From Prorocentrum cordatum (taxonomy: Eukaryota > Sar > Dinophyceae > Prorocentrales > Prorocentraceae), in assembly GCA_963575745.1 (NCBI GenBank), contig CAUYUJ010011514.1:62001-126000 (forward strand): a DNA stretch of 64,000 nucleotides, given 5' to 3'. The notes under the pieces are model-generated. The model searched no databases. It was not told where the DNA came from and saw nothing but the letters and a program-made list of their open reading frames with translations. Position 1 is the stretch's first letter, and every line of letters begins with the position of its first letter. The position numbers and the translations under genes were made by a program. This document shows, in pieces, positions 16,153-49,861 of the stretch.

Positions 16153-17098
16153 AATTCCGGGGCGCTGAAGAGCTAGTTGGCAAGAAAAATCTCGACCGAC
16201 CTTTTGGTGACTTTTGGTCGGTTGAAATTTTGTTCTCGAAATTCCCCAATTCGTTTGAGCTCTGGTATTCCTTCCCGTGATATTCGATCTTATTCCCGCT
16301 CGCCATCTTGATCTCAGCTCGATCGGGAACCCAGAGGTCTGAACTCGGTCTGCTAGCCGAGCTAGGTTTGCAAACCTATTCGTATTATTCGAGTCATCTT
16401 GACAGACGCTCTCGGTTTTCTGTCCGTGATCTGTCGAATCCAGAGCTCTGAACTCGGTCTGCTGTCCGATCTAGAATCGCGAAACTATTCGTATTGTTCG
16501 AATCATCTTGAGAGATGCTGTCGGTTCTCTGCACTCAACTCGGGCTGTGGGGGGGCTGCATGGCTGGTAATCACTGGAATTGATTCGGAGACATCAGGTG
16601 CGTTCGCCTTTCGAATCCAGAGCTCTGAACTCTGTCTGCTGCCCAAACTAGGTCCTCGAAACTATTCGTATTGTTCGAGTCATCCTGAGAGGTGCTGTCG
16701 GTTTCCTGCACTTAACTCGGGCTGTAGGGGGGCTGCAGGCCTGGTAATCACAGGAATCGATTCAGAGACATCAGACACGTCCGCCTGTCGCATGCAGAGA
16801 TCTGAACTCGGTCTGATACCCGAGCTAGGTTTGCGAAGCTCTTCGGTTTGTTCGAGTCATCTTGACAGGTGCTGTCGATTTACGCACGTTACTCGGGCTG
16901 TAGGAGAGCTACAGAGCTCGTACAGAAGACAATCCAGAAGCATCGGGGGCGTTCGGCTGTTACATTGGAGAGGTCTGAAATTGCTTGGGCTGAAACTTTA
17001 TTTTTGTTGTGTATTTTTTTCGGCATTATATGTTGTCAGGAAGCTCTACGAGTCCCCCGGCGGTAACGAAGGTTGACGGTTTACCGCCGGCGCCCAGT
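16153..17098 (+). repeat. HB element, right-hand part
   Basis: Resumes at AATTCCGGGGCGCTG and ends at hairpin 17054-17098. The loop reads TAACGAAGG, the same variant as the hairpin that received LINE-1, so it serves as an empty-site model. A 225-codon open frame (16399-17076) spans four monomers and the tail; it is repeat-derived. Confidence 0.7.
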
Positions 17099-17545: not shown

Positions 17546-18520
17546 TTCCGGGGCGCTGGAGAGCTAGTTGGCAAGAAAAATCTCGACGGACATTTTGAGG
17601 AATTTTGGTCGGTTGAAAATTTTGTTCTCGAAATTCAACAATTCGTTTGAGCTCTAGTATTTTTTCCCATGATATTCGATCTTATTACCGCTCGCCATTC
17701 TGATCTCAGCTCGATCGGGTACCTTTTACTGCCAAAAAGCGTCCAGGCGGGATCGGCCGTTTCGGGTCATCTTGTCACGCGCTGTCGGTTTTCTCAAGAT
17801 AACTCGAGCTTTAGAACAACTACAGAGCTGGTAAGCACAGCTAATCGATTCAGAATGATCAGGCGCGTTCGCCTGTTGAACCCAGAGGTCTGAACTCGGT
17901 CTGCTAGCCGAGCTAGCCGAGCTAGGTCTGCAAATCTACTCGTATTATTCGAGTCATCTTGACAGACGCTCTCGATTTTCTGTACTTAACTCGAGCTACA
18001 GGACAGCTACAGAGCTGATACGCACAGAATCTGATTCCGAATCTTGAGTGACCGTTGTCTGTTGAATCCAGAGCTCTGAACTCGGTCTGCTGCCCGATCT
18101 AGAATCGCGAAACTATTCGTACTGTTCGAGTTATCTTGAGAGGTGCTGTCGGTTCTCTGCACTCAACTCGGGCTGTGGGGGGGCTGCAGGGCTGGTCATC
18201 ACAGGAATCGATTCAGAGACATCAGACGCGTCCGCCTGTCGCATGCAGAGGTCTGAACTCGGTCTGATACCCGAGCTAGGTTTGCCAAACTATTCGTATT
18301 GTTCGAGTCATCTTGAGAGGTGCTGTCGATTTACGCACGTAACTCGGGCTGTAGGAGAGCTACAGAGCTCGTATAGAAGACAATCCAGAAGCATCGGGGG
18401 CGTTCGGCTGTTACATCGGAGAGGTCTGAAATTGCTTGGGCTGGAAAACTATTTTTTCAGTGTAATTTTTTCCATATTATATGTTGTCAGGAAGCCCTAC
18501 GAGTCCCCCGGCGGTAACGA

Positions 18521-18546
18521 ACGGCTCAAGAACGTCTCGGCTCAAG
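18521..18546 (+). other. Truncated spliced-leader relics at the LINE-1 5' end
   Basis: GGCTCAAG, the last 8 nt of the dinoflagellate spliced leader, occurs at 18523-18530 and again at 18539-18546, each followed by AACGTCTC. They sit directly at the junction with the target hairpin, so the mobile RNA was probably trans-spliced. A tandem duplication of one 16-nt relic unit is the alternative. Confidence 0.6.
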
Positions 18547-18581
18547 AACGTCTCTGCCTGGGGAACCTCCAGACGTTCTAG
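18532..18581 (+). other. Inverted repeat in the LINE-1 5' UTR
   Basis: AGAACGTCT just after the second leader relic and AGACGTTCT at about 18572-18580 can pair over a loop of roughly 20 nt. No counterpart is evident in LINE-2, so a function is uncertain. Confidence 0.35.
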
Positions 18582-19074
18582 CGAGCCCTGGCCTCGGGGT
18601 GTGAGCCCGGCTTGCCTGGGTTCCCTCGAGGTTTTTGTCTGCTTACTCTACATCTCTTGTATTGTACGCTGTATTCTTCTTCGTGGTATTGAGATTCTCT
18701 GGTGTGCTGCACTGCTGTTCATTGTCTGTCTGCATTCATTACCTCTTATTGAACGAGTGGTAGTTACTTGTGTGTGGATCGTTGTTGACATCACGTCGTA
18801 CGACAGTCCTGAGGCTCAGCTGGCATTGAGGAGAGAGATAGGACTCGAGCATTGGGGTGAAAGTACTGAGGAGTGGTTTCGGCGTCAAAGGAATTTGGAC
18901 ATACCCACAGAAGACTACCAGGACGAGAGAGTCAACTTTGATTACCTTGAGGAATACCAGCCGTGGGATCAGAAAGATCTGCAGGCACTGGAGGCAGCAT
19001 CAAACAAACGTCAACGTGAGGACGATAGGAGCTGGTTAGATAAATACGGATTGAACGGTAATATTCTTGAAGAT

Positions 19075-20178
19075 ATGACTCATGTTGCAGCAGCGGCGGA
19101 TGCCGCGATGACTGGGGATGGTGAGACTCGATCCAAACGTGCACGTGGAACAGAGATTGAGGAGGAGAGGAAAGTGATGTTAGAAAAGGAGAAGGATCCA
19201 TTCAAACAGATGATGATGAAGCATGTTTGGAAAACGGAGGATGCCCATGAGGATCTCATCCATGTTGTTCAATCGACGAAGACGGACATCAAAAGAGTTG
19301 ATGACACACTCAAGTTGCATACGGAGAGAATGGACAAATCAGATGCACGGACAGATATTTTGGAGAAACAGGTTAAGCAAATTTTGGCTGGATCTCCTGC
19401 AGCTTCGGTTTCGACTAGTGTGGGCCCTGGTGGCTCCTCTGGTGGTGGTGGAGGTTCGATCCCTCGCGTGCAACAGGAGCGATCGAGCCAGTTCACACCA
19501 ACTTATCTCGAGCTGAAAGGGTGGGTTACGGATTGGTCGAATCAAGTAAATCGGGGAAATCAAATGATACCCTGGGCAGATGCGGCACAGCTAATATCAA
19601 ATATGATTGGGACACTTCAGGGGGAGGAAAGGAATGCTTACGATAAAGATAAAACTGAACGTTTAAACGGAGGAAGATATATGTACGGCAGTGTGAAGGT
19701 CGGTTTCAAAGAAGGGACACCACGGGACACTCTCTGGAGAATAAAGAAATGGATGGATATGGTATGTAAGGAACCCGCCGACCGCATTGCCCCGCCCCCA
19801 GGTTATACGTATCCAGATGCCGATGTTCTCACTCATGATATGGACACGCCAATCGATCTTAGAAAGATTCGTACGTTAGTGGAGTGTGCACCCTGGAAGC
19901 GTGATCATGTGAAAGCGGTTGCTCGTTTCTGTGGGACTTGGCGTAGTATGACCTCGGCTCATGTTCAAATCGAGATCCGTGGGGAGGTGGGGCCACCGAG
20001 AAGTCAGATTTGGACTCAAGCTGTTCCGAATTTCCGACCCGTCTGTTTTGCGACGTATACGAATACCACAGGGGCTTGGGTTCTTCATGCTGATGCATGG
20101 GCTCGTATTGTTTCTTTTTATCCGGCGCTGAAGGTTCCCATGAATGATATACTTCAGGAAGTGAATCGTAGGCAGTGA
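19075..20178 (+). CDS. LINE-1 ORF1 protein (coiled coil)
   Basis: Likely the RNA-binding or chaperone-type ORF1 product of a non-LTR retrotransposon. The first AUG in the whole element is at 19075 and gives 367 residues, close to the 358 of the LINE-2 counterpart. The frame is open upstream to the element start, and a short motif before the AUG (WLDKYG here, FLEQWG in LINE-2) is shared, so a non-AUG start upstream is possible. Order: basic SKRARG patch (possible nuclear signal), acidic/basic helix, heptad-patterned coiled coil (KTDIKRVDDTLKLHTERMD), Gly/Ser linker, then a C-terminal domain shared with LINE-2 (FTPTYLELKGW, APWKRDHVKAV, GPP). I see no zinc knuckle or clear RRM. It ends in UGA, with ORF2 continuing in the same frame. 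Confidence 0.75.
   Translation: MTHVAAAADAAMTGDGETRSKRARGTEIEEERKVMLEKEKDPFKQMMMKHVWKTEDAHEDLIHVVQSTKTDIKRVDDTLKLHTERMDKSDARTDILEKQVKQILAGSPAASVSTSVGPGGSSGGGGGSIPRVQQERSSQFTPTYLELKGWVTDWSNQVNRGNQMIPWADAAQLISNMIGTLQGEERNAYDKDKTERLNGGRYMYGSVKVGFKEGTPRDTLWRIKKWMDMVCKEPADRIAPPPGYTYPDADVLTHDMDTPIDLRKIRTLVECAPWKRDHVKAVARFCGTWRSMTSAHVQIEIRGEVGPPRSQIWTQAVPNFRPVCFATYTNTTGAWVLHADAWARIVSFYPALKVPMNDILQEVNRRQ
20176..20178 (+). promoter_or_regulatory. Candidate UGA readthrough site between ORF1 and ORF2
   Basis: Context CAG TGA CGT. ORF2 follows in the same frame with no further stop. The first in-frame AUG of ORF2 (residue 32) lies inside the endonuclease, after the SWNLN motif, so ORF2 must start by readthrough or at a non-AUG codon. 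LINE-2 has the same arrangement at 45702-45704. Confidence 0.6.
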
Positions 20179-23100
20179 CGTTTGCGGCGCCTCGTCCGAG
20201 GCATACGCTTGGCGAGCTGGAACCTGAACAAAGCAGGGGAGGCTCATTTCAAATGTGCTGAGATTCTCCATCATATGAGGGCATGTGGTGGGCTCTTTGC
20301 ATGTCAGGAAACTCAATACCTAGTGCACGGGGAATTTGAACGCTTGGGGTGGCGCATCAAAACTAGTTCGTGTAGTAAGGCAGCTCTCATCTTCGACAGA
20401 TCTTGGGCGGCTGCCGTCCGTATGTTTTTCACTTGTTTCACGAGGTTCGTTATCGGTGTCTTTGGGTCAGAGAAGTCACCACTCATTATTGTGTCAGCGT
20501 ATTTGCCAGACCCTCATGTGGAGGATTGTGTAGAGATTGCTGCGGAGGTATATGAGCAGATCGGTCGTGCTCGCAATGTTCTCCGCACTAAGTTTCCTCA
20601 GGCCAGCTTTTGTGTTCTGCTAGATGCAAACGTGGAGATTCCGCCTGGATGCAGATTTACGTATAATGGGGAGGAGTATGAGGCTACTGGAAAGGAAGGT
20701 ACTCGTACGGACAGAAGGTGGGAGAGAGGAGGAGACGGTACACAGCAGATTGAAAGGAGGAGTCGGAGGAGGAGGCTGAAGGAGCTGCTGTTAGAGTTCA
20801 TGGAATCGCATGGACTGAAGGCCGCCAACACTTTCTGTACTAGGAGGCATACCTGGGAGTCGTGGGGGGAGAACAAGTTTCTGACTTCGAAGAGGGTCCT
20901 GGATTACCTAATGGTCCCTCACCGTTGGGAGTTCTCGGATCTGGAGGTGAAGTGGTGTTTCAAGAGGGGTGGGAAGAAGCAGTTCAGTAGATTATCCGAT
21001 CACGCAATCATCACGGCGAGTTTCACTGACCCTGGGAACGTGATTGTTCGTCGCCCTGACCCCCAGCCTGGTCAGAAGTCTAGGCCGTCTCTGGTCGGAT
21101 ACAAGTGTTCGACTTGGGCTGATGAGCATCAGGCTCGACAGCATGTGGATTCGTATCTAGGCGGTGCTGCCTTTTCAAGGTGTCCGTCTGTGACCTGTCC
21201 ACAGGGTCTGGAGAGTACTATGCTGGAGGCGTACTTGTCACCGACGGTGGACTACTCCACCACGGGTGCGAGAAGACCGAGAGAGCCGTCCAGGCCGGTG
21301 CAGCTCACAAGAGCGGAGGAGGAGGTTAAGATGTGTCCGAAGGAGGAAGTGGAGAGGTTGAGGAGGTTAAAGAATGAGGCTAATCGTCTACGCAGAGGTT
21401 ATCGACGTGATATGATTATGTGCAGATGTCCCCCAACAAAACGAAAGGTCAGATATACTATCAAACATTTAGTGGTGGATGGGAGGGAGACGGAGGACCG
21501 TGAGGAGTGGAAGGAGGAGCTCGACAAGTTCGTTCGTTGCAAGGTGTCGTCCGAAGAGATACGCAATTCCACCAACAGTATGATGGAGGAGATCAGGATG
21601 AGGGCTGTACATGAGATACGTTCCACATCAGTTGTGGGAATTAGTATGGCGCTGCTTCTCAGAGCACGAGCTCGGCTGAAGACCCAGAGGGCTACTGGGC
21701 CAGACGGGATACCGTGCGAGATTCTAAGGAGCTTGCCGTGGTGTGCTCTCAGAGCGATCCAGAAGTTGTTCGATAAAATCATCAAGCTCACGATTCCGTA
21801 TCCTCAGTCGTGGCGTGAGATTCTCGTCTCTTTTATGCCAAAAACTCCAGGGATTACTAAGTTAAAAGACGGACGTTTGCTGTGTATGCAGAATGCTGTT
21901 TCGAGATGGTTCAGTTCCTGTGTTGTTCTCTTGGTTGAGGGTCATATTGAAAGAAAAGGAGTGTTTCGTCATATTGGGTTGTATGGTTTCCAGGAACACC
22001 GTCGTACACACGAAATCACGGCTAGCATCAAACACATAGGTCAACATGCTGCACAATGGGGAAAAGGGGAAACGGCACACTTGGCGAACGCTGATGTCCT
22101 TCAGGCGTTCGATCACTGCACGGTGGCCAATGTCAGGCGCGGGTTGGATCATGCGGATGTACCCCTTTACCTACAGTATGCTCTACTTGACCCCTTGTGC
22201 GAATGTGTAGGCACTGTCTATTATGATGGGATTGAGGTGGTGGAGGTTAGGTGGGACAAATGTATTCGGACGGGAGGGCCCGAGGGACCGTTGGCCTTCA
22301 ATCTCATCGTTGCTGCTATGTGGGGCTCCACGATTCGAGAATGGGACGTACTAGGACTAGGTTATCGTATTGAGTATGTGACTGGCTCGACTAGCTGTGT
22401 TTCGATTATTAATCATTTCCTTTGGGCTGACAACTGTTATGTATTGGCTCGGAGTCGAGAAGAACTCACGCGCATGTTACACGGTCTAACTACACAGTTA
22501 CATGATTATGGCATGAGATGGAAGGAATCCAGCCTACTGTACATGGTGTTCGGGGTCGAGCCGCCGCGAGATGTGGAAGGGGAAATACTTCACACTGCTG
22601 ATCTTGTCCTCTCGGTGGGGTCGGAGGAGTCTGGAGTGTATCGATTTAGAAGGACGACGGAGATGGAGGTGCTGGGGGCTTATATTTGTTCTGAACTACA
22701 TGTGAATGAACATCATGATTTGGATGCTCGTATTGACTGTGCTCGCAGGGCCTTCTGGGGGCAGGCGACCTTCTTCCGCTCCACGGCCATCCCGTTGAAA
22801 GATAAATATGAGAGGTATGCTCAGAGAGTTCAGAGCATTGTGCTCTACGCGGCGGAAGGATGCACGGTCGATTCAAGTTCATTGAGCGCCCTTCATATCT
22901 TTGAGGGCAAGTGCCTGTCTGTAATGTCTCGCTGTATACGGAGGGAGGGGGAAAGTTGCCAGGAATGGAATACGAGGAGGTATGAACGTGCGAGACAAAA
23001 ATTTCATGACGCTCACTTCGTGGGCATTGTACAGAAGTTTCTCAGAGTGCATTGGATGTGGGCAATTGACATCCAGGACTTTGCACACAGGCTGATCACA

Positions 23101-24132
23101 GATCGGGGGGAGTTGGAGGCGAACTCGATGAGAGCTTGGAGAGATTCTCGTTTCTCATGTCTGGCGTTTGGCCGACTGTGGGATAGAATGAGGACGGATT
23201 CAAGTGAGGCTCTCAGATGTTGGGGAAACTGGAAGGAGGCCAGCTCTATGAAAAGGCATCGGGGGGGACAAGAGAGCGTCGGACTCCGTCCGTGGTATTA
23301 TGCATTGGAATCGTTTTACGGTTTATCCTGGTGGGAGTTCTTTGCTGGAAGTTTTGAGCATTTCATGGATTTCGCTACTAATGTTTGTTCAAGTACTATG
23401 TTGAAGTACTTCCAAAAGAAGTGTAAAGGTTTGGCGTCCTCAGGGGTGCCTGTATTCTTGAACTTGGATGAGGATGGAGGGGCTCATATCGGTCAGGATC
23501 GGGAGGATACACCAGCATATAAGGATCGCCTCAGCAAACGTATTGCGTTGCATAATATGCGTTGTACACAGTGGGACCTCGATACAGATGGGATACCACT
23601 GGGCATCCAAGGGGACTCACTGCTTGTTATTAACTGGCTCTGCGGGAAATGGAAAGTATTAGCTCAGGTTTATCAGAAAAGGGTGGATACTCTGATTAAT
23701 AAGTTGGACGAAATGCAGGAAACTTACTTGGTGAGGCCTCCAGAGGCCGGCCGTGACTTCTTCTCTCATTCGTTTCGGGAATGGAACCAGAAAGCTGACT
23801 TACTGACCCATCAGGCCCGTCAGGGCCATGTGTACGCCGATTTCGTTTATCTCAACGACTTTGAATCTCAGTGTTATATGCCTTGCCTTATCAAAGCCGG
23901 CTTTGATGGGGGAGTTTGTAGCCGCGGAAGTGCCTGTGGTGCATGGATACAGATTGGTCTGCGAAACAAGTATATCTTCTCGCGGACCGACATCATTTTC
24001 AAGGATGTGTATCTTGCGGCTTGGTGTCTACCACCGAGCGCCACTGTTACAGATGCGGAACTATCGGCGGCGGAGCGCATATGCGAGGTGCTCCCACAGG
24101 TTGTGCAGACCTTCTTTGATCATTCGCAGTGA
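20179..24132 (+). CDS. LINE-1 ORF2: EEP endonuclease, reverse transcriptase, permuted RNase H
   Basis: About 1,317 residues, uninterrupted, numbered here from the TTG codon at 20182. Residues 8-280 form an EEP-type endonuclease: SWNLN (12-16), CQET with metal-binding E43, LLDANVE with D148 and N150, and SDH at 272-274. Residues of about 490-800 form the RT: the GPDGIPCEIL region, motif A DVLQAFD (D638), motif B GGPEGPLAFN (698-707), motif C WADN (748-751) and RWKESSLLY after it. Motif C lacks the usual second Asp. The C-terminus carries RNase H motifs in rotated order: GDSLLVINW (D1145), REWNQKADLL (D1206), FDGG (D1242), AELSAAE (E1293). Expected role: nick the target, copy the element RNA by target-primed reverse transcription and degrade RNA. 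Translation probably depends on passing the ORF1 UGA. Confidence 0.85.
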   Translation, partial: RLRRLVRGIRLASWNLNKAGEAHFKCAEILHHMRACGGLFACQETQYLVHGEFERLGWRIKTSSCSKAALIFDRSWAAAVRMFFTCFTRFVIGVFGSEKSPLIIVSAYLPDPHVEDCVEIAAEVYEQIGRARNVLRTKFPQASFCVLLDANVEIPPGCRFTYNGEEYEATGKEGTRTDRRWERGGDGTQQIERRSRRRRLKELLLEFMESHGLKAANTFCTRRHTWESWGENKFLTSKRVLDYLMVPHRWEFSDLEVKWCFKRGGKKQFSRLSDHAIITASFTDPGNVIVRRPDPQPGQKSRPSLVGYKCSTWADEHQARQHVDSYLGGAAFSRCPSVTCPQGLESTMLEAYLSPTVDYSTTGARRPREPSRPVQLTRAEEEVKMCPKEEVERLRRLKNEANRLRRGYRRDMIMCRCPPTKRKVRYTIKHLVVDGRETEDREEWKEELDKFVRCKVSSEEIRNSTNSMMEEIRMRAVHEIRSTSVVGISMALLLRARARLKTQRATGPDGIPCEILRSLPWCALRAIQKLFDKIIKLTIPYPQSWREILVSFMPKTPGITKLKDGRLLCMQNAVSRWFSSCVVLLVEGHIERKGVFRHIGLYGFQEHRRTHEITASIKHIGQHAAQWGKGETAHLANADVLQAFDHCTVANVRRGLDHADVPLYLQYALLDPLCECVGTVYYDGIEVVEVRWDKCIRTGGPEGPLAFNLIVAAMWGSTIREWDVLGLGYRIEYVTGSTSCVSIINHFLWADNCYVLARSREELTRMLHGLTTQLHDYGMRWKESSLLYMVFGVEPPRDVEGEILHTADLVLSVGSEESGVYRFRRTTEMEVLGAYICSELHVNEHHDLDARIDCARRAFWGQATFFRSTAIPLKDKYERYAQRVQSIVLYAAEGCTVDSSSLSALHIFEGKCLSVMSRCIRREGESCQEWNTRRYERARQKFHDAHFVGIVQKFLRVHWMWAIDIQDFAHRLITDRGELEANSMRAWRDSRFSCLAFGRLWDRMRTDSSEALRCWGNWKEASSMKRHRGGQESVGLRPWYYALESFYGLSWWEFFAGSFEHFMDFATNVCSSTMLKYFQKKCKGLASSGVPVFLNLDEDGGAHIGQDREDTPAYKDRLSKRIALHNMRCTQWDLDTDGIPLGIQGDSLLVINWLCGKWKVLAQVYQKRVDTLINKLDEMQETYLVRPPEAGRDFFSHSFREWNQKADLLTHQARQGHVYADFVYLNDFESQCYMPCLIKAGFDGGVCSRGSACGAWIQIGLRNKYIFSRTDIIFKDVYLAAWCLPPSATVTDAELSAAERICEVLPQVVQTFFDHSQ

Positions 24133-24393
24133 TTTGACACACATTGTTTCTTCTTTTCCGTGTCTTGTATATTCCTGCAGCTTCGCTGCTCACTGGCTTC
24201 CTCGTTTATCTGTGTGTACTTTGCGTTTGATTGTGTCATTGCGGCATGTGATTCTCTTTATTCCTTCAGCTTCGCTGTGTGGTATAAGAGCTGGCTGCTT
24301 GCGTGATGAATAAGAGGCTCTGTTTTGCCTGAGACTTTGTTGGACCTGGCCTCAGTGGCCAAGACGGTCCCAGCAAAAGACGCAAAAAAAAAA
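24133..24393 (+). other. LINE-1 3' UTR with terminal stem-loop and A tail
   Basis: Contains CAGCTTCGCTG-type motifs that recur in the LINE fragment at 40520-40875. Near the end TGGCC (24347-24351) pairs with GGCCA (24357-24361) over a 5-nt loop. The tail follows (AGACGGTCCCAGCAAAAGACGC and ten A). All other LINE 3' ends in the window have a comparable stem-loop, so it may be the site the RT recognises. Confidence 0.65.
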
Positions 24394-24425
24394 CGAAGGT
24401 TGACGGCTTACCGCCGGCGCCCAGT

Positions 24426-44320: not shown

Positions 44321-44627
44321 TGCAGAGAGGTGCCCTTTTGTTCCTCTTAATGTACACGGTGCCTCAGTGTCGGTTTTGCCTGAGTGCCTTTGGATCCAGA
44401 TTACACATTGACAGTCCAGATCGTTGGAGTACTGTTTACTTCTTGTGAGGACATCAATTTCTTGTGAGGACATCTGTACTTTCTTGTGAGGTCATCTGTA
44501 CTTCTTGTGAGGACATCTGTTCGACACGACGACAGATTCTAAGCGTTCGCGTGAGGACATCAATTTCTTGGAACAGTGGGGGTTTCCAGAGGAGTTCAAG
44601 TATTCGAACACCGTCACTTTTGCAGCG

Positions 44628-45704
44628 ATGTCTCAGCAAAACCCAGCAGGTGAGCCCTGTTGTAACAAGAGTAAGGCTGAGGGTGAGGATGAGGATATGA
44701 TTCAGGCAAGCAGTGAGGAGGAGGAGCAGTTCGGGGAATTTGATGACGGCAATCCTATGAAGCAACAGTTTGCTATGATGAAGGCTATGCTAGCTAAGCA
44801 GAACACTCAGAAGAAAAGAATTTCACGGATTGAGCAGGATGTGAAACGGATCGACCAGCGTGGTGAGAAGAATGAGGCTGACATCGCAGCTATGCAGCAG
44901 CAGATCCGTTCGCTTCAGCAGAAGGGTCCACCCAGTGATGCAGGATCAGGGCCCACGGATGCTTGGAGTAACTATGCGGGCCCTGCGGGCTCCTCTGCTA
45001 CGGCCACTGCTCCCAGGTATGGTAATCGTACGCCAGTTCGCGAATGGAATCGAGTGCGGGAGGATTTCACACCGACCTTCATCCAACTCACAGGTTGGGC
45101 GCGAGGTGGAGTCGGCAATCTCAAGACTCGTTCATCGGATATGCTCTCCTGGGACCATGCTCTGCCTGTCATTCGTAAATTTGTCCGTGGCACAGGAAAG
45201 ATGACTGAGGAGCATTTCGACACGAGTAGGATCGAGCGGGAGCACAAAAATAAACCATATGGTCTTTATCGTATACGATTCTATGTTATAAGTGGCAAGT
45301 TGACGAACGATGAAATTTGGGAGATGCGCAATTCTTGGGCCGTCGAGCTTGAGAATGACACGCACGACTTGAAGCAAATCACTCCCATCCTGGCCAACAA
45401 GCGTCTCGGCGTATCCTGTGAACCAGCACCCTGGAAGCAGCCACATGTATCTGCCGTGGGTCGTTGTCAAGCTATCTTTGCTACTCTCAGGAGTGGCTCC
45501 CAGTGGCTGAAGGGTGAGATGGGTCCTCCTGTCAGCTATGTGCGGGGCTACCCTTCGGCCACGACGCCGAAGACGGATGGAGTATGCATTGCCGCTTTTG
45601 ATCCTAACTTGGGGTGGAAGGTTGATGCCGAGCTGCTGCGTAAGGTCGATGACAAGTTGGATTGCGAGGCCTTTCTGGCCAAGCTCAACTTTCGTACCTG
45701 GTGA
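44628..45704 (+). CDS. LINE-2 ORF1 protein (coiled coil)
   Basis: 358 residues from the first in-frame AUG; the frame is open back to 44511, and FLEQWG just upstream resembles the LINE-1 sequence before its AUG. Order: acidic N-terminal part (EEEEQFGEFDD), Met/Gln/Lys-rich heptad region (KRISRIEQDVKRIDQRGEK...) predicted as coiled coil, Gly/Ser/Ala linker, then the conserved C-terminal domain: FTPTFIQLTGWA, APWKQPHVSAVGR, EMGPP. Expected to bind the element RNA in a ribonucleoprotein with ORF2. It is intact although ORF2 is broken. It ends in UGA (45702-45704), and ORF2 continues in the same frame. Confidence 0.7.
   Translation: MSQQNPAGEPCCNKSKAEGEDEDMIQASSEEEEQFGEFDDGNPMKQQFAMMKAMLAKQNTQKKRISRIEQDVKRIDQRGEKNEADIAAMQQQIRSLQQKGPPSDAGSGPTDAWSNYAGPAGSSATATAPRYGNRTPVREWNRVREDFTPTFIQLTGWARGGVGNLKTRSSDMLSWDHALPVIRKFVRGTGKMTEEHFDTSRIEREHKNKPYGLYRIRFYVISGKLTNDEIWEMRNSWAVELENDTHDLKQITPILANKRLGVSCEPAPWKQPHVSAVGRCQAIFATLRSGSQWLKGEMGPPVSYVRGYPSATTPKTDGVCIAAFDPNLGWKVDAELLRKVDDKLDCEAFLAKLNFRTW
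45702..45704 (+). promoter_or_regulatory. Candidate UGA readthrough site in LINE-2
   Basis: Context TGG TGA AGG. The downstream frame is open through the endonuclease start, and its first in-frame AUG (45756) is late. An out-of-frame AUG at 45712 gives only nine codons. The layout is the same as at 20176-20178. Confidence 0.55.
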
Positions 45705-46330
45705 AGGTGCCATGGCGCCATCGTGGGCACGGATAACGTGAGGCGCTGTGGCAGCATGAACAGCCACGACTTGCTTGCTCAGATCAAGACCTCGAATTCG
45801 GAAGTTCTCGCTTTGCAGGAGTGCCAGTTCCTTGGAATAGGTAGGTGCTCTGAGCATGGTTTCACCTTAACTCTTTCTAATGATGGGAAGGCGGGGGTTC
45901 TCTACAAGAGGGTGTGGAGAGCCTCCATACGTGAATGCATCAGGGGTAATCGTTATGTCATTCTCGTGTTTCAATCGTTGATTGTTGCCAGCTTGTACTT
46001 ACCACATGCGCCGAACAAGGGGGATCACAATATCTTATTCACACAAACATTGCAGTCGTTTCGAAAGGATTTGGATACGCTCCGAGTTAGGTTTCCCAAG
46101 GAAGGGTGGGGCTTGTTGATCGGGATCGATGCCAACGTTGAGCTTCTGCCTCACGCGGTCTTTGGAGATGTTGCTTTGACTGGTTCTGCAGTACAGGGTG
46201 AGAGATTTGAAGATGGGGGCAATGAAGGAGGAGGTGGACGTGGAAGTTTCCAGCAGGGTAGGAGGAGGATGCAACAATACATGTGTGACGAGCTCTGTGA
46301 ATGTATGTGGCATTATGGTTTGTTGTTTTT
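45705..46330 (+). pseudogene. LINE-2 ORF2, segment 1: EEP endonuclease N-terminal part
   Basis: Matches the LINE-1 endonuclease: LALQECQF (metal-binding Glu), LLIGIDANVELLP, and the RRMQQYMCDELCECM helix preceding the first break. The initial SWN motif is replaced by GTDN, which may be decay. The frame shifts near 46319-46330 in a GTTTGTTGTTTTT run, where LINE-1 is continuous; the original frame stays open to 46403 but no longer matches. Confidence 0.7.
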
Positions 46331-48252
46331 CGAATTCTTTTGGGGCCCGTCGTGCGACCTGGAAGGCCAAGGAGGAGACGGAGGAGGAGGACAAGTTTCT
46401 TGATTACCTGTGTATTCCGAGCTCCTGGGAAAGGCCTCAGTGGGAGGTGTCGTGGTTAAGGCCAACACTCAGGGGCTCCGTGGACCCCAGAAAGACCCGC
46501 CTGTCGGACCATGCCCTGCTCACCTTGCTTGTCCCCGAATCGGCCGCTCCGACTCGACGTTGGAGAACGAAGCCACGACAGACGTTCACTCATTGGTGCT
46601 GCGACGAGGCCTCGGAATTGCAAGTTTCGGCTAACCTTGATCGTCGTTTGCACGCTGCAGCTCGTTACCCATCTGGTCTCTGCCCGGATGAATTGGCTCC
46701 TGTTATTTTGGATGCATGTACACAGGACAAGGAGTCGTACACCAATGTCCCAAAGAAAATGCAGATCCCCAAAAAGACAGATCGTCATAAGGAACTTGAT
46801 GATGAATATCGCCGACTGCGTCGTGAAGGAGGGGGGGAGGAGGAGCTCATCAGGGTTAAGAAGGAGAGAAGGAAGGAGATGCGTGCACACACTCGTCGTC
46901 GACCCGAATACGATCATCGTGACGGGAAGCTCGCTCGGACGGTGGTGGACAAATTGAGTTATGACAATGTGCTCACGGAGGATAGGGAGTTGTGGGAGAA
47001 GGCGCTCTATGCTCACGGGTTCGCCAAGTACCACTGTGCTGCGCAATGGATACGTAACGTGGAGTGTATCGAGGAGAGGAGGGGGAGGAGGTTGCAGGAC
47101 ACGAACACTGTGGACGTCTCCCCCATTTCCATGTCCGTATTGTTACAGGCACGATCACGCTTAAAGTGTGGTAAGGCGGTGGGTAAGGACGGAGTTTCTC
47201 CTTCTATGTTGAAACGTATCACGTGGGTAGGTTTGCGTCATATTCTTCGGTTATTCCAGGACCTGTATCTTCAACGGTATCCTACTCATCGGATTTGGTC
47301 TGAGTTGCTTGTGGTGTTGATGCCGAAAGCTAAAGATATCACTAAGTTGTCTGATACTCGTGCTCTCGTCTTACTTAGCAGCCTGAGCAAATGGTATACT
47401 TCATGTTTGGTTGAGATTGCTGAAGATTATCTGAAAAGGGTCCCACAATATCTACATAACTACGGATTTGGCAAGGGAAGGCGCACGCACGAGATCACTG
47501 CCATGCTTAAGCATGTCACCACACACGCTCTGGAGTGGGGGAAAGATGAGGCCCTGCACCTCGCGTCATTAGATGTGCAGACTGCCTTTGATAACGTCAC
47601 GGTTGAGAAGGCCAGTCGGGCCTTGGATGCCACCCCTGGGTTCCCCAATGACCTTGCGTTGGCGCTGCTCGCTCCCAGTATCCTGGACGCAGCGGACTTT
47701 ACCTTTCAGGACTCCACGGCGACGGGTATTCCCTGGGATGCATGTGTACGTACTGGCAGTGTGGAGGCCCCCTTCCTGTGGAAGTGTGTGACACTACTGA
47801 TGTGGGATAGGATTGTACTGAATTGGGAGGAGGAGAAGCTGGGGTACGATTTGGGGGAGGAGGCTGGTGGGAGGTATCTTACTCATGCGCTCTGGGCCGA
47901 TAACATTTTGCTTTTCTCGAAATCAAAGACTGAGCTCACACGTATGGTGGGGGACTTCTCGGCTCAGCTGTATACACACGGCTTCAGATGGAAAGATTCC
48001 TCACTACACTATCTTGCCTTTGGGGAGGACTCTGAAGGCGCCTCGACGGGGAACCTCGTTGTCCAGGTGAACGATCTCGGTGCCCTGTGTCTTCCGCGAT
48101 GCTCTGAAATGGAGTGCCTGGGTTGCCTGGTCACGACCAAGACTGACAAAGACCATGATGTGGCTTGGAAATTGGCTCGGGGTTGGAAGCGATTCAATCA
48201 GTTCCGCAAGTTTTATACGAATCGTGCTTTACCCTTCCAGAGGAAAATCTAG
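46331..48252 (+). pseudogene. LINE-2 ORF2, segment 2: end of endonuclease and reverse transcriptase
   Basis: Begins with SFGARRATWKAK, continues through the endonuclease SDH motif (D codon at 46507) and an Arg-rich linker into the RT. RT landmarks: GKDGVSPSMLKR, DTRALVLLSSLSKWY, GRRTHEITAMLKHV, motif A DVQTAFD (first D codon at 47572), a motif B region diverged to TGSVEAPFLW, motif C WADN (D codon at 47899) and RWKDSSLHY. WADN is shared with LINE-1. The segment ends in a stop at 48250-48252 where LINE-1 reads on, so a second frameshift lies at about 48236-48272. Confidence 0.75.
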
Positions 48253-49064
48253 GTTGCGTAGTTTTGTATTTTTTCGGAGTTGAAGGCATGCCAGCGGACC
48301 ACCACACCTTGAAACAGTTGCACACGTGGGCAGGTAAACTATTGTGTTCTATGGTACGCCGCCCGAAACCTGCCGACATGGATTGGAGTATATACTTATG
48401 CAACTTGTACAGACGTGGGCGGCGTATGCTCCTGGAGTTGGGACGGCCGTCTCTTGTGCAGCTATTCTTGTTTCGTCAGTGGCAGTGGGCTCAGGACTGT
48501 GCGTTTGCTGTGAAACGCCTGAACCCAACGCCCGCGCAGATTCCTCCAGGTACTTTTGATTCTTCAGGCAAGCCTGGCCCCAACGTCTTTGCTGCGTGTG
48601 AGCCACCGCCGGCCAAGAGACAACGTCAGGATGATCCCATGTATGTGCTACCAAGTATTGCGTGCTCGACATCAATGGGATGTCATCCTGACGTGTGTGA
48701 GACGATGCATGCTGTTGATTCCTTTGAGCTCCCTGGTTCTAAGACACAATTACCCGCGCATCGGCGCAATCTGATTTCCCAGATGCATAAGCGTGCAAAG
48801 CCATCCCATCCATCTCAGGATTCTCTGTCGCAGAAGCGTTCCTCTGTTGAGTTGCCGTCGCAGGAAATAGCTGCAAACAAGCGGCGACGGGTGGCTCCAC
48901 CTCATCATCGTAGCACAGGGGGCTCGCATATGCAGGCTAGAGAATGTATTTTTGCATGGTCGGGGGAGTGGACTGACCGACGGCAGGCCTTCATTGCATC
49001 ACTGCCTTGGGAAGATCGCCCATTAATGACACGTCGGCATGAGGGGGGAGACCACTGGCGTTGA
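48253..49064 (+). pseudogene. LINE-2 ORF2, segment 3: region between RT and RNase H
   Basis: In another frame the match to LINE-1 continues: LHTWAGKLLCSMVRR beside its IFEGKCLSVMSRCIR, and FLFRQWQWAQD beside its FLRVHWMWAID. A long insert follows that LINE-1 lacks. It is rich in Ser, Pro and basic residues, with two basic clusters (AKRQRQDD, ANKRRRVAPP) that look like nuclear localisation signals. It ends GGDHWR at 49064, where the frame changes again. Confidence 0.65.
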
Positions 49065-49861
49065 GAAACTTCCATTACATTTTCGAGTTGGTATCAGGGA
49101 AGGATTGGTATCATACGTTATCCTTTTCACGTCAGGGATGGAAAGAATTTCTGAAGCGGGCACTGGATGTTACTAACATGGAGGAGGCGTGGGGGTACTG
49201 TTATTTCAAACATGCACAACCTGCGGGATATGCTAGGGAGGAGGAGGAGAGGGAGAAGACGGAGGAGCAGCAAAGGAAGGAGGACGAGAAGATGGAGAAA
49301 CGACTTGCGTACATTAATGAACATGCATCGGAGTGGAATGCGGAGCCTCGGGACTCGATACCGATGGAATTGATTGGTGACTCCTCCACAGGGGTGAATT
49401 GGATTAACGGTCTCTGGGCAACATCCAATATTATCTACAAGCACATTCTTGGCGACATTCAAAACAGGCTGGAGCATATCTCTGTGTTGTATGGTATGAG
49501 GCCTCCGAGTTGGGGCCACAATATGTTCAAGTGGATCTATCGAGAAGGAAACGAAAGAGCTGACAGGCTGACATGGTTGGCCAGAACCAAAAATAGTTAC
49601 GTTACGTTCCATACCTCACTTATTGAACATGCGAGTAAAACAAAACTAGACGGCCTCCGTGGATTCTTCGACGGAGGTCGCTCTGTGGAGGGATGTGCTG
49701 CAGGATGGTGTATAGATTTGTGTGTACACGGGACGTGGCAGTTGGTGGCGGAGGAAGCTTTCTCGCTTGCTTCTGTCATGTTTTGTGAGATGATTGCAGC
49801 ACAACGGCTCTGTATGGCCGTGGAGCACATTTTGGGTTGCATCTTTCATCCAAGCAGCTGA
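49061..49861 (+). pseudogene. LINE-2 ORF2, segment 4: permuted RNase H
   Basis: It overlaps the previous segment by four bases (TTGA). An acidic/basic helical insert (EEEREKTEEQQRKEDEK) is followed by RNase H motifs in rotated order: ELIGDSSTGVNW (D codon 49379), REGNERADRLTW (D codon 49562), FFDGGRS (D codon 49670), FCEMIAAQRL (E codon 49787). Spacings of 61, 36 and 39 residues compare with 61, 36 and 51 in LINE-1. The protein ends 24 codons after the Glu codon. All four catalytic acids are kept despite the frameshifts upstream. Confidence 0.75.

Follow-up and report, generated by a model that had tools for sequence, protein, structure and literature searches.

The C-terminus of ORF2 of a LINE in the window (the whole 64,000-nucleotide stretch of DNA that was analysed) very probably corresponds, as judged from its sequence, to an archaeal-like RNase HI (aRNH subtype, D-E-D-R-D) that has undergone natural circular permutation. 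The order of its motifs is conserved, both of its halves are under purifying selection, and its match to RNase H profiles is strong for one half and appears moderate for the other. It is likely that the permutation is natural, old and functional, that it was fixed before the radiation of an entire clade of dinoflagellate LINEs, and that, within the literature searched, it has no precedent in any reverse-transcribing element.

The LINE copy in the window and the motif order of ORF2

The preliminary description of this DNA had placed the C-terminal motifs in the order GDS (D1145), AD (D1206), DGG (D1242) and E1293, with a distance of 61 residues between D1145 and D1206 compared to 64 between D70 and D134 of E. 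coli RNase HI, and the ORF2 translation showed both the order and the distances to be correct (Table 1). Residues 10/48/70/124/134 of E. coli RNase HI (L031) are D/E/D/H/D. The protein was also found to end right after the Glu helix, the stop being located 23 residues past E1293, and to contain no second FDGG upstream of GDS, both as described previously; an upstream FDGG does occur once in the related protein P0008, at the place of AGS in the window protein.

Table 1. Features of the two LINEs in the window (positions are those of the window).
Feature	Position	Strand	Basis or remark
Whole LINE copy	18522..24393	+	Flanks compared by eye to the array unit at 17071, which is uninterrupted; alignment of 3′ ends from 30 copies
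ORF1, part inside the element	18522..20178	+	Mechanical ORF begins at 18481 in the flanking repeat; ends with TGA; same frame as ORF2
ORF2, 1316 aa	20182..24132	+	Stop 24130-24132
Reverse transcriptase region, residues 481-880 (limits by eye)	21622..22821	+	PF00078; motif C WADN
RNase H half that is second in canonical order but encoded first here, residues 1136-1217	23587..23832	+	hhalign; RNase H matches in PDB
D1145 codon	23614-23616	+	GDS
R1199 codon	23776-23778	+	RExN
D1206 codon	23797-23799	+	AD
Linker from old C-terminus to old N-terminus, residues 1218-1235	23833..23886	+	Low identity
RNase H half that is first in canonical order but encoded last here, residues 1236-1316	23887..24129	+	DGG (D1242), TD.ELSA (E1293), stop
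D1242 codon	23905-23907	+	DGG
E1293 codon	24058-24060	+	ELSA
C-terminal piece of second, decayed, distantly related LINE, permuted order	49061..49861	+	Six-frame scan with canonical profiles
Second LINE, first D codon	49379-49381	+
Second LINE, second D codon	49562-49564	+
Second LINE, third D codon	49670-49672	+
Second LINE, E codon	49787-49789	+

Residues 1136-1217 contain GDSLLVINW..GKW.V and H.FREWN..AD.LTHQAR, and residues 1236-1316 contain AGFDGGV..G...G.W and ATVTDAELSAAE, a segment that we read as the putative first half, with β1, β2, β3 and helix A. The linker between them (residues 1218-1236 in this comparison) showed 12-47% identity and was the least similar of seven regions in three of four comparisons. 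The window protein has 21 acidic residues within 1136-1316; across P0001, P0002, P0003, P0015 and P0016 only D1145, E1200, D1206, D1242 and E1293 were invariant. Because only these five acidic positions are invariant across five long relatives, the motif set is more than chance. A complete canonical-order RNase H within the same ORF, which the preliminary description had named as evidence against a permutation, was looked for by profile and was not seen in scans of ORF2 or in a six-frame scan of the window.

Upstream of this region, ORF2 is organized into an endonuclease-like N-terminus (by eye), a reverse transcriptase (RT) region and a conserved middle region. The N-terminal motifs LASWNLNKAG and SDHA were recognized by eye, and Pfam gave no endonuclease match; the first ATG of ORF2 is found at residue 32, past the first of these motifs (window 20182-20274). 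PF00078 matched window ORF2 with 26.8 bits (E 4.9e-6), which is below the curated cut-off of 29.6, and precomputed PF00078 matches were present on P0002, P0003, P0015 and P0016. The usual form of RT motif C is xADD. In the window it reads WADN (D750 N751, 22429-22434), and W-A-D-N was invariant in five long relatives.

The A-run at 24384-24393 forms the 3′ end of the window copy, and an A-rich tail was also present in the fetched copies (3′ ends of 30 copies). A likely 4-base duplication (CGAA; 18518-18521 and 24394-24397), seen by eye in the window copy only and of uncertain exact length beside the A-run, flanks the element. ORF1 and ORF2 share one frame and are parted by a single TGA (20176-20178) in all 30 copies (context AGGCAGTGACGTTTG), at which readthrough or reinitiation is possible; in just 8 of the 30 copies did the 498 codons upstream of this TGA lack a stop in this frame. 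The element showed a strong target preference: GGTTGA(C/G)GG was located within 70 bases of the tail-opening GACGCAA in 24 of 30 copies, the window's own included, and mostly directly after the A-run (window 24384-24417 and the 3′ flanks of L001-L030). The six copies without the exact sequence contained one-base variants (L003, L019, L020, and L030), a partial one (L010) or none (L006). Besides, a repeat array extends across 627-58530 of the window, in which GGTTGACGGYTYACCGCCGG occurs 51 times (at most two mismatches; none expected), often at a spacing of about 1 kb. In uninterrupted array units the insertion site of the LINE was visible by eye inside the near-palindrome CCGGCGGTAA..TTACCGCCGG.

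Copies, relatives and purifying selection

A search of the own genome with window ORF2 scored 35 places, namely the window copy and 34 others at 98-99% identity, and 32 of the 35 lacked an internal stop. Thirty near-identical copies, the window copy among them, were fetched, and all 29 that could be scored by position carried D, D, D and E at the motif positions; the remaining copy (L022) is two residues shorter and was left unscored by position, and its printed stretches contain DGG and ELSA. Database searches gave 15 related proteins (P0002-P0016). Twelve of these contained the four motifs in permuted order (P0002-P0005, P0007, P0008, P0010, P0011, and P0013-P0016), with N in place of D1206 in P0011, three were incomplete (P0006 loses the frame before the Glu, P0009 is without the second half and P0012 reaches no motif), and none was canonical. 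Two proteins named Prorocentrum cordatum, P0004 and P0005, were 93% and 81% identical to the C-terminal region of ORF2, and the permuted order was also kept in P0015 and P0016, which are 34% and 29% identical overall. In P0016, an insertion of nearly 400 residues with His/Thr/Ser repeats (residues ~800-1180) is located between the RT and the permuted RNase H.

Searches of the same genome with three of these proteins gave at least 36 places for P0003 (97-99% identity, none with a stop), at least 119 places scored among 5818 candidates for P0014 (64-71% identity), and at least 101 places scored among 6376 candidates for P0010 (40-53% identity). The motif order was read in 11 stretches fetched from these searches (L128-L138) and was intact in 10 of them, L137 being broken by stops and frame changes; L136, reached via the P0010 search, was close to P0002. 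The final set comprised 14 sequences (P0001, P0002, P0003, P0007, P0008, P0010, P0013, P0014, P0015, P0016, L128, L129, L134, and L135). P0004 and P0005 (near P0001, with altered or cut ends), P0006, P0009, P0011 and P0012, the near duplicates L130-L133, L136 and L138, and the decayed L137 were omitted from it.

All 14 chosen sequences, the window included, showed the permuted order, at a lowest overall identity of 29%. The spacing was 60-61 residues for D1145-D1206 and 46-72 for D1242-E1293, with 19-28 residues after the Glu, and the positions GDS, W, G.W, R, G, H..RE.N..AD.LT, R, DGG, G, G.W and T..EL.A were invariant. Thus, the four catalytic carboxylates D-E-D-D of RNase HI were present and invariant in 14 of 14, and so was R1199, an active-site Arg ahead of the last Asp. 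In the accessible part of PMC5348765, such an Arg is assigned to the aRNH subtype and a His to the fungal/metazoan-like subtype. The linear aRNH order β1(D)-helix A(E)-β4(D)-AD(D) is not the one found in window ORF2, and since the order GDS, AD, DGG, E was found in all 14 sequences, the domain would be a permuted variant and not an ordinary aRNH member.

No canonical-order relative of window ORF2 was detected among the database proteins found and the genome stretches fetched, and among viral contigs 74 stretches fitted a pattern and none was a relative. That the motifs arose by chance or reflect a single aberrant copy is ruled out by the 35 places at 98-100% identity together with the divergent relatives. 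The search for relatives, which the preliminary description had proposed for other dinoflagellate genomes, gave permuted relatives in the same genome and among database proteins.

The same permuted order (GDS, RE.N..AD, FFDGG, FCEMIAA) was shown for the second LINE of the window. A six-frame scan with the canonical profiles described below matched 49043-49858 by the second half (E 0.0012 with the combined, 0.57 with the dinoflagellate and 0.28 with the prokaryotic profile). Read in pieces and unmended, this LINE includes an ORF1 (44568-45704), endonuclease and RT pieces (45723-48252) and the C-terminus listed in Table 1, and it was 24-33% identical to other members over matches of at least 130 residues, with up to 39% in shorter pieces.

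Both halves are under purifying selection. In the pairs L128/L129, L129/L130, L128/L132, L135/L138 and window/L136, dN/dS was 0.13, 0.12, 0.15, 0.12, and 0.16 for the first half (DGG..E) and 0.06, 0.06, 0, 0.08, and 0.16 for the second half (GDS..AD), these being point estimates from non-independent pairs, some with few changes or a dS near saturation. A sixth pair (window/L133) was saturated, and in the youngest family the variants were too sparse per half to judge selection.

Profile comparisons of the two halves

Three canonical profiles were used: a prokaryotic profile of 79 sequences (78 of 80 prokaryotic loci and E. coli RNase HI), a dinoflagellate profile built from 15 canonical-order loci of the same genome minus L123, leaving 14 domains, several of them near-identical, and a combined profile of the dinoflagellate set and every fourth of the 79 prokaryotic sequences. 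The GDS..AD half of the 14-sequence alignment appears to be a strong match to canonical RNase H, with hhalign E-values of 1.2e-13 (combined), 6.7e-11 (dinoflagellate) and 4.3e-12 (prokaryotic) when aligned alone; compared to PDB (E up to 10) it gave 13 matches, six of them of the RNase H set (best E 0.0026). Pfam gave no RNase H match in window ORF2, and a permutation of its halves would explain why the domain escapes this standard annotation. When single members were compared to PF13456, one of seven matched in swapped order (by its second half only), one of seven in native order and two of 11 as longer sequences, with a best E-value of 0.0027, below the cut-off.

The match of the DGG..E half would be moderate, weaker than that of the GDS..AD half and clearly so compared to prokaryotic RNase HI. 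Alone, this half was aligned with E-values of 0.01-0.04, and with 0.27 in the case of the prokaryotic profile, where DGG was unaligned (14 sequences). The comparison with the halves swapped, as proposed in the preliminary description, spoke for the permutation with the combined and dinoflagellate profiles, and with the prokaryotic profile swapped and native order were about equal. For the 14 sequences, the scores of the second half alone, the native order and the swapped order were 75.1, 78.1, and 86.3 with the combined profile, 61.6, 62.9, and 73.7 with the dinoflagellate profile, and 66.7, 72.4, and 72.7 with the prokaryotic profile. With column shuffling of the first half, the swapped score was attained in 0 of 200 cases (combined; best 85.3), 0 of 200 (dinoflagellate; best 68.3) and 2 of 200 (prokaryotic). 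In a 7-sequence round with the combined profile only, none of 300 shuffles reached the real score of 70.4 (best 69.9), and in a 9-sequence round 2 of 300 (combined), 2 of 300 (dinoflagellate) and 11 of 300 (prokaryotic) reached the swapped score, native order scoring higher than swapped with the prokaryotic profile (67.8 vs. 67.0). With this profile the swapped match extended to helix A only and left DGG unmatched, for 9 as well as for 14 sequences, and a single-sequence HMM rotation scan compared to prokaryotic RNase HI gained about 1 bit.

When 92 overlapping windows of ORF2 (residues 145-1135) were used as a substitute first half, none was as good as the real one (60.4 vs. at most 55.4; 3-sequence alignment, combined profile). 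In a doubled native alignment, where no order is forced, the match ran from the DGG region over the junction to AD with the combined profile, and started at β3 with the dinoflagellate and at helix A with the prokaryotic profile. The top place in a scan of the whole ORF2 with the combined canonical first half was 1240-1297, with both catalytic residues, D and E, in register (E 0.038), and with the dinoflagellate-only first half it was 1241-1254, the DGG strand alone (E 0.086). Upstream of GDS no first-half signal was detected by profile comparison or by the whole-ORF2 scan, and added native upstream residues gained nothing. A conserved helix before GDS (RLSKRIALHNM..T.WDL) was considered as a leftover helix A and was without profile support.

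The swapped 7-sequence profile gave six PDB matches (E up to 10), five named as RNase H or RNase H-related and ST0753, which we take to be an RNase HI. The best was 3u3g (E 0.0013), whose alignment crosses the junction into helix A, but three residues out of register, with E1293 opposite an Asn and not the catalytic Glu. The native-order profile also gave six matches (E up to 10), five of the RNase H set and AcrIIA5, with a best E-value of 0.038. With the swapped 9-sequence profile, 3u3g was matched with an E-value of 0.00079, and six of eight matches at E up to 1 belonged to the RNase H set.

These results bear on whether GDS..AD might be the remnant of a truncated RNase H, followed by an unrelated conserved C-terminal extension whose likeness to a first half is coincidental. 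We consider this improbable: the only two invariant acids of the last segment (five long relatives) are those missing from the other half, this segment contains the place in ORF2 that best matches a first half, in register (combined profile), and the shuffle and window controls and the low dN/dS in both halves also argue against it, although the last segment alone had no RNase H match in Pfam or PDB (two PDB matches, neither RNase H) and the prokaryotic profile shows no preference for the swapped order. Motif order, conservation and profiles together support the reading of the preliminary description, a predicted circularly permuted RNase H at the C-terminus of the LINE ORF2.

Proposed fold and comparison with known systems

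For the permuted domain we infer a fold, strand assignment, activity, role and origin as follows. The chain would enter the fold at the β4 strand (GDS) and continue through helices to the HxxRExN..AD segment; a linker of ~20 residues would come next, and then β1 (DGG), β2, β3, and helix A (ELSA) at the chain end. The permutation would thereby put the new ends at the helix A-β4 connection, with the linker joining the old ends, and, as in RNase HI, the five catalytic residues would be expected to come together in a standard two-metal site. The most likely role would be to strip template RNA from the RNA:DNA hybrid of target-primed reverse transcription. Duplication followed by partial loss is the usual proposed route to a circular permutation; here, a canonical RNase H may have been duplicated and its outer halves lost, and no canonical or tandem duplication intermediate was seen among the relatives found.

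An RNase H fold without cleavage, serving as a binding or tether domain, is quite unlikely. Degenerate RNase H domains of this kind are known in some LTR elements and lose their catalytic residues, according to the part of PMC5348765 that was available, whereas the five aRNH catalytic residues are kept without exception in the 14 chosen sequences. Least credible is a domain-swapped dimer, in which the halves pair between two ORF2 molecules: order alone cannot separate cis from trans, but the linker of ~20 residues seems long enough for a connection in cis, and a plain permuted monomer would be simpler.

RNase HI has served as a classic model for studies of folding and two-metal catalysis, and to our knowledge few catalytic domains are circularly permuted in nature. 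A permuted RNase HI in many intact copies under selection would offer a natural way to ask whether folding and activity are constrained by chain topology. If the proposed permutation is correct, a two-metal nuclease can arise, spread and stay under selection with its chain opened between helix A and β4, and the failure of standard annotation suggests that searches tied to one linear order may overlook RNase H domains of further elements. The repeated acquisition of RNase H by LINEs is called enigmatic in the accessible part of PMC5348765; a permuted RNase H that is kept intact bears on why it occurs.

In the openly licensed PMC literature, none of the matches listed reports a retroelement with a permuted RNase H, and the available main text of a superfamily survey (PMC3985635) contains no word starting with "permut". 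In the available part of the CIRPIN preprint (PMC12667903), an RNase H-like pair related by circular permutation is similar in this respect to the window domain; the pair consists of AlphaFold cluster representatives, with no retroelement or RNase HI named in that part, unlike the case of the window. The aRNH of plant Ta11 and oomycete L1 elements, as presented in the part of PMC5348765 seen, resembles the window domain in being a C-terminal RNase H of a LINE ORF2 with an active-site Arg (D-E-D-R-D). It differs in its catalytic order (D-E-D-R/H-D) and in the CCHC motif upstream: the halves are swapped in window ORF2, where no CCHC motif was seen by eye.

Compared to the prokaryotic RNase HI structures 3u3g, 4e19, and 2ehg (PDB), the second half of the window domain aligns directly and the swapped profile aligns over the junction into helix A; the first half is at the opposite end of the chain and its match does not extend to DGG, and the DGG loop is without their RGNPGP stretch. 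One LINE ORF of the same genome (L127 890-4879; G000:C13383:81600-86800) contains a canonical-order RNase H and a Cys-rich stretch apparently inside the RT (motifs by eye), this insert being located between a finger-like stretch, KSCCSEGMVVTEML, and RPLAIVPVLPKMVG. Its RT is distant from that of the window (BLASTP E 6e-5) and has WSDN as motif C. Among the canonical-order RNase H domains of the same genome (L112-L122 and L124-L126), only L112, which equals L127, was shown in a LINE ORF, and there, unlike in the window, the domain is inside the RT region and not C-terminal. These domains differ from that of the window in their order, but they resemble it in FDG..G and, in L113-L117, in DAE(W/R) and GKW.V, and they make up the profile that gave the clearest gain from the DGG..E half.
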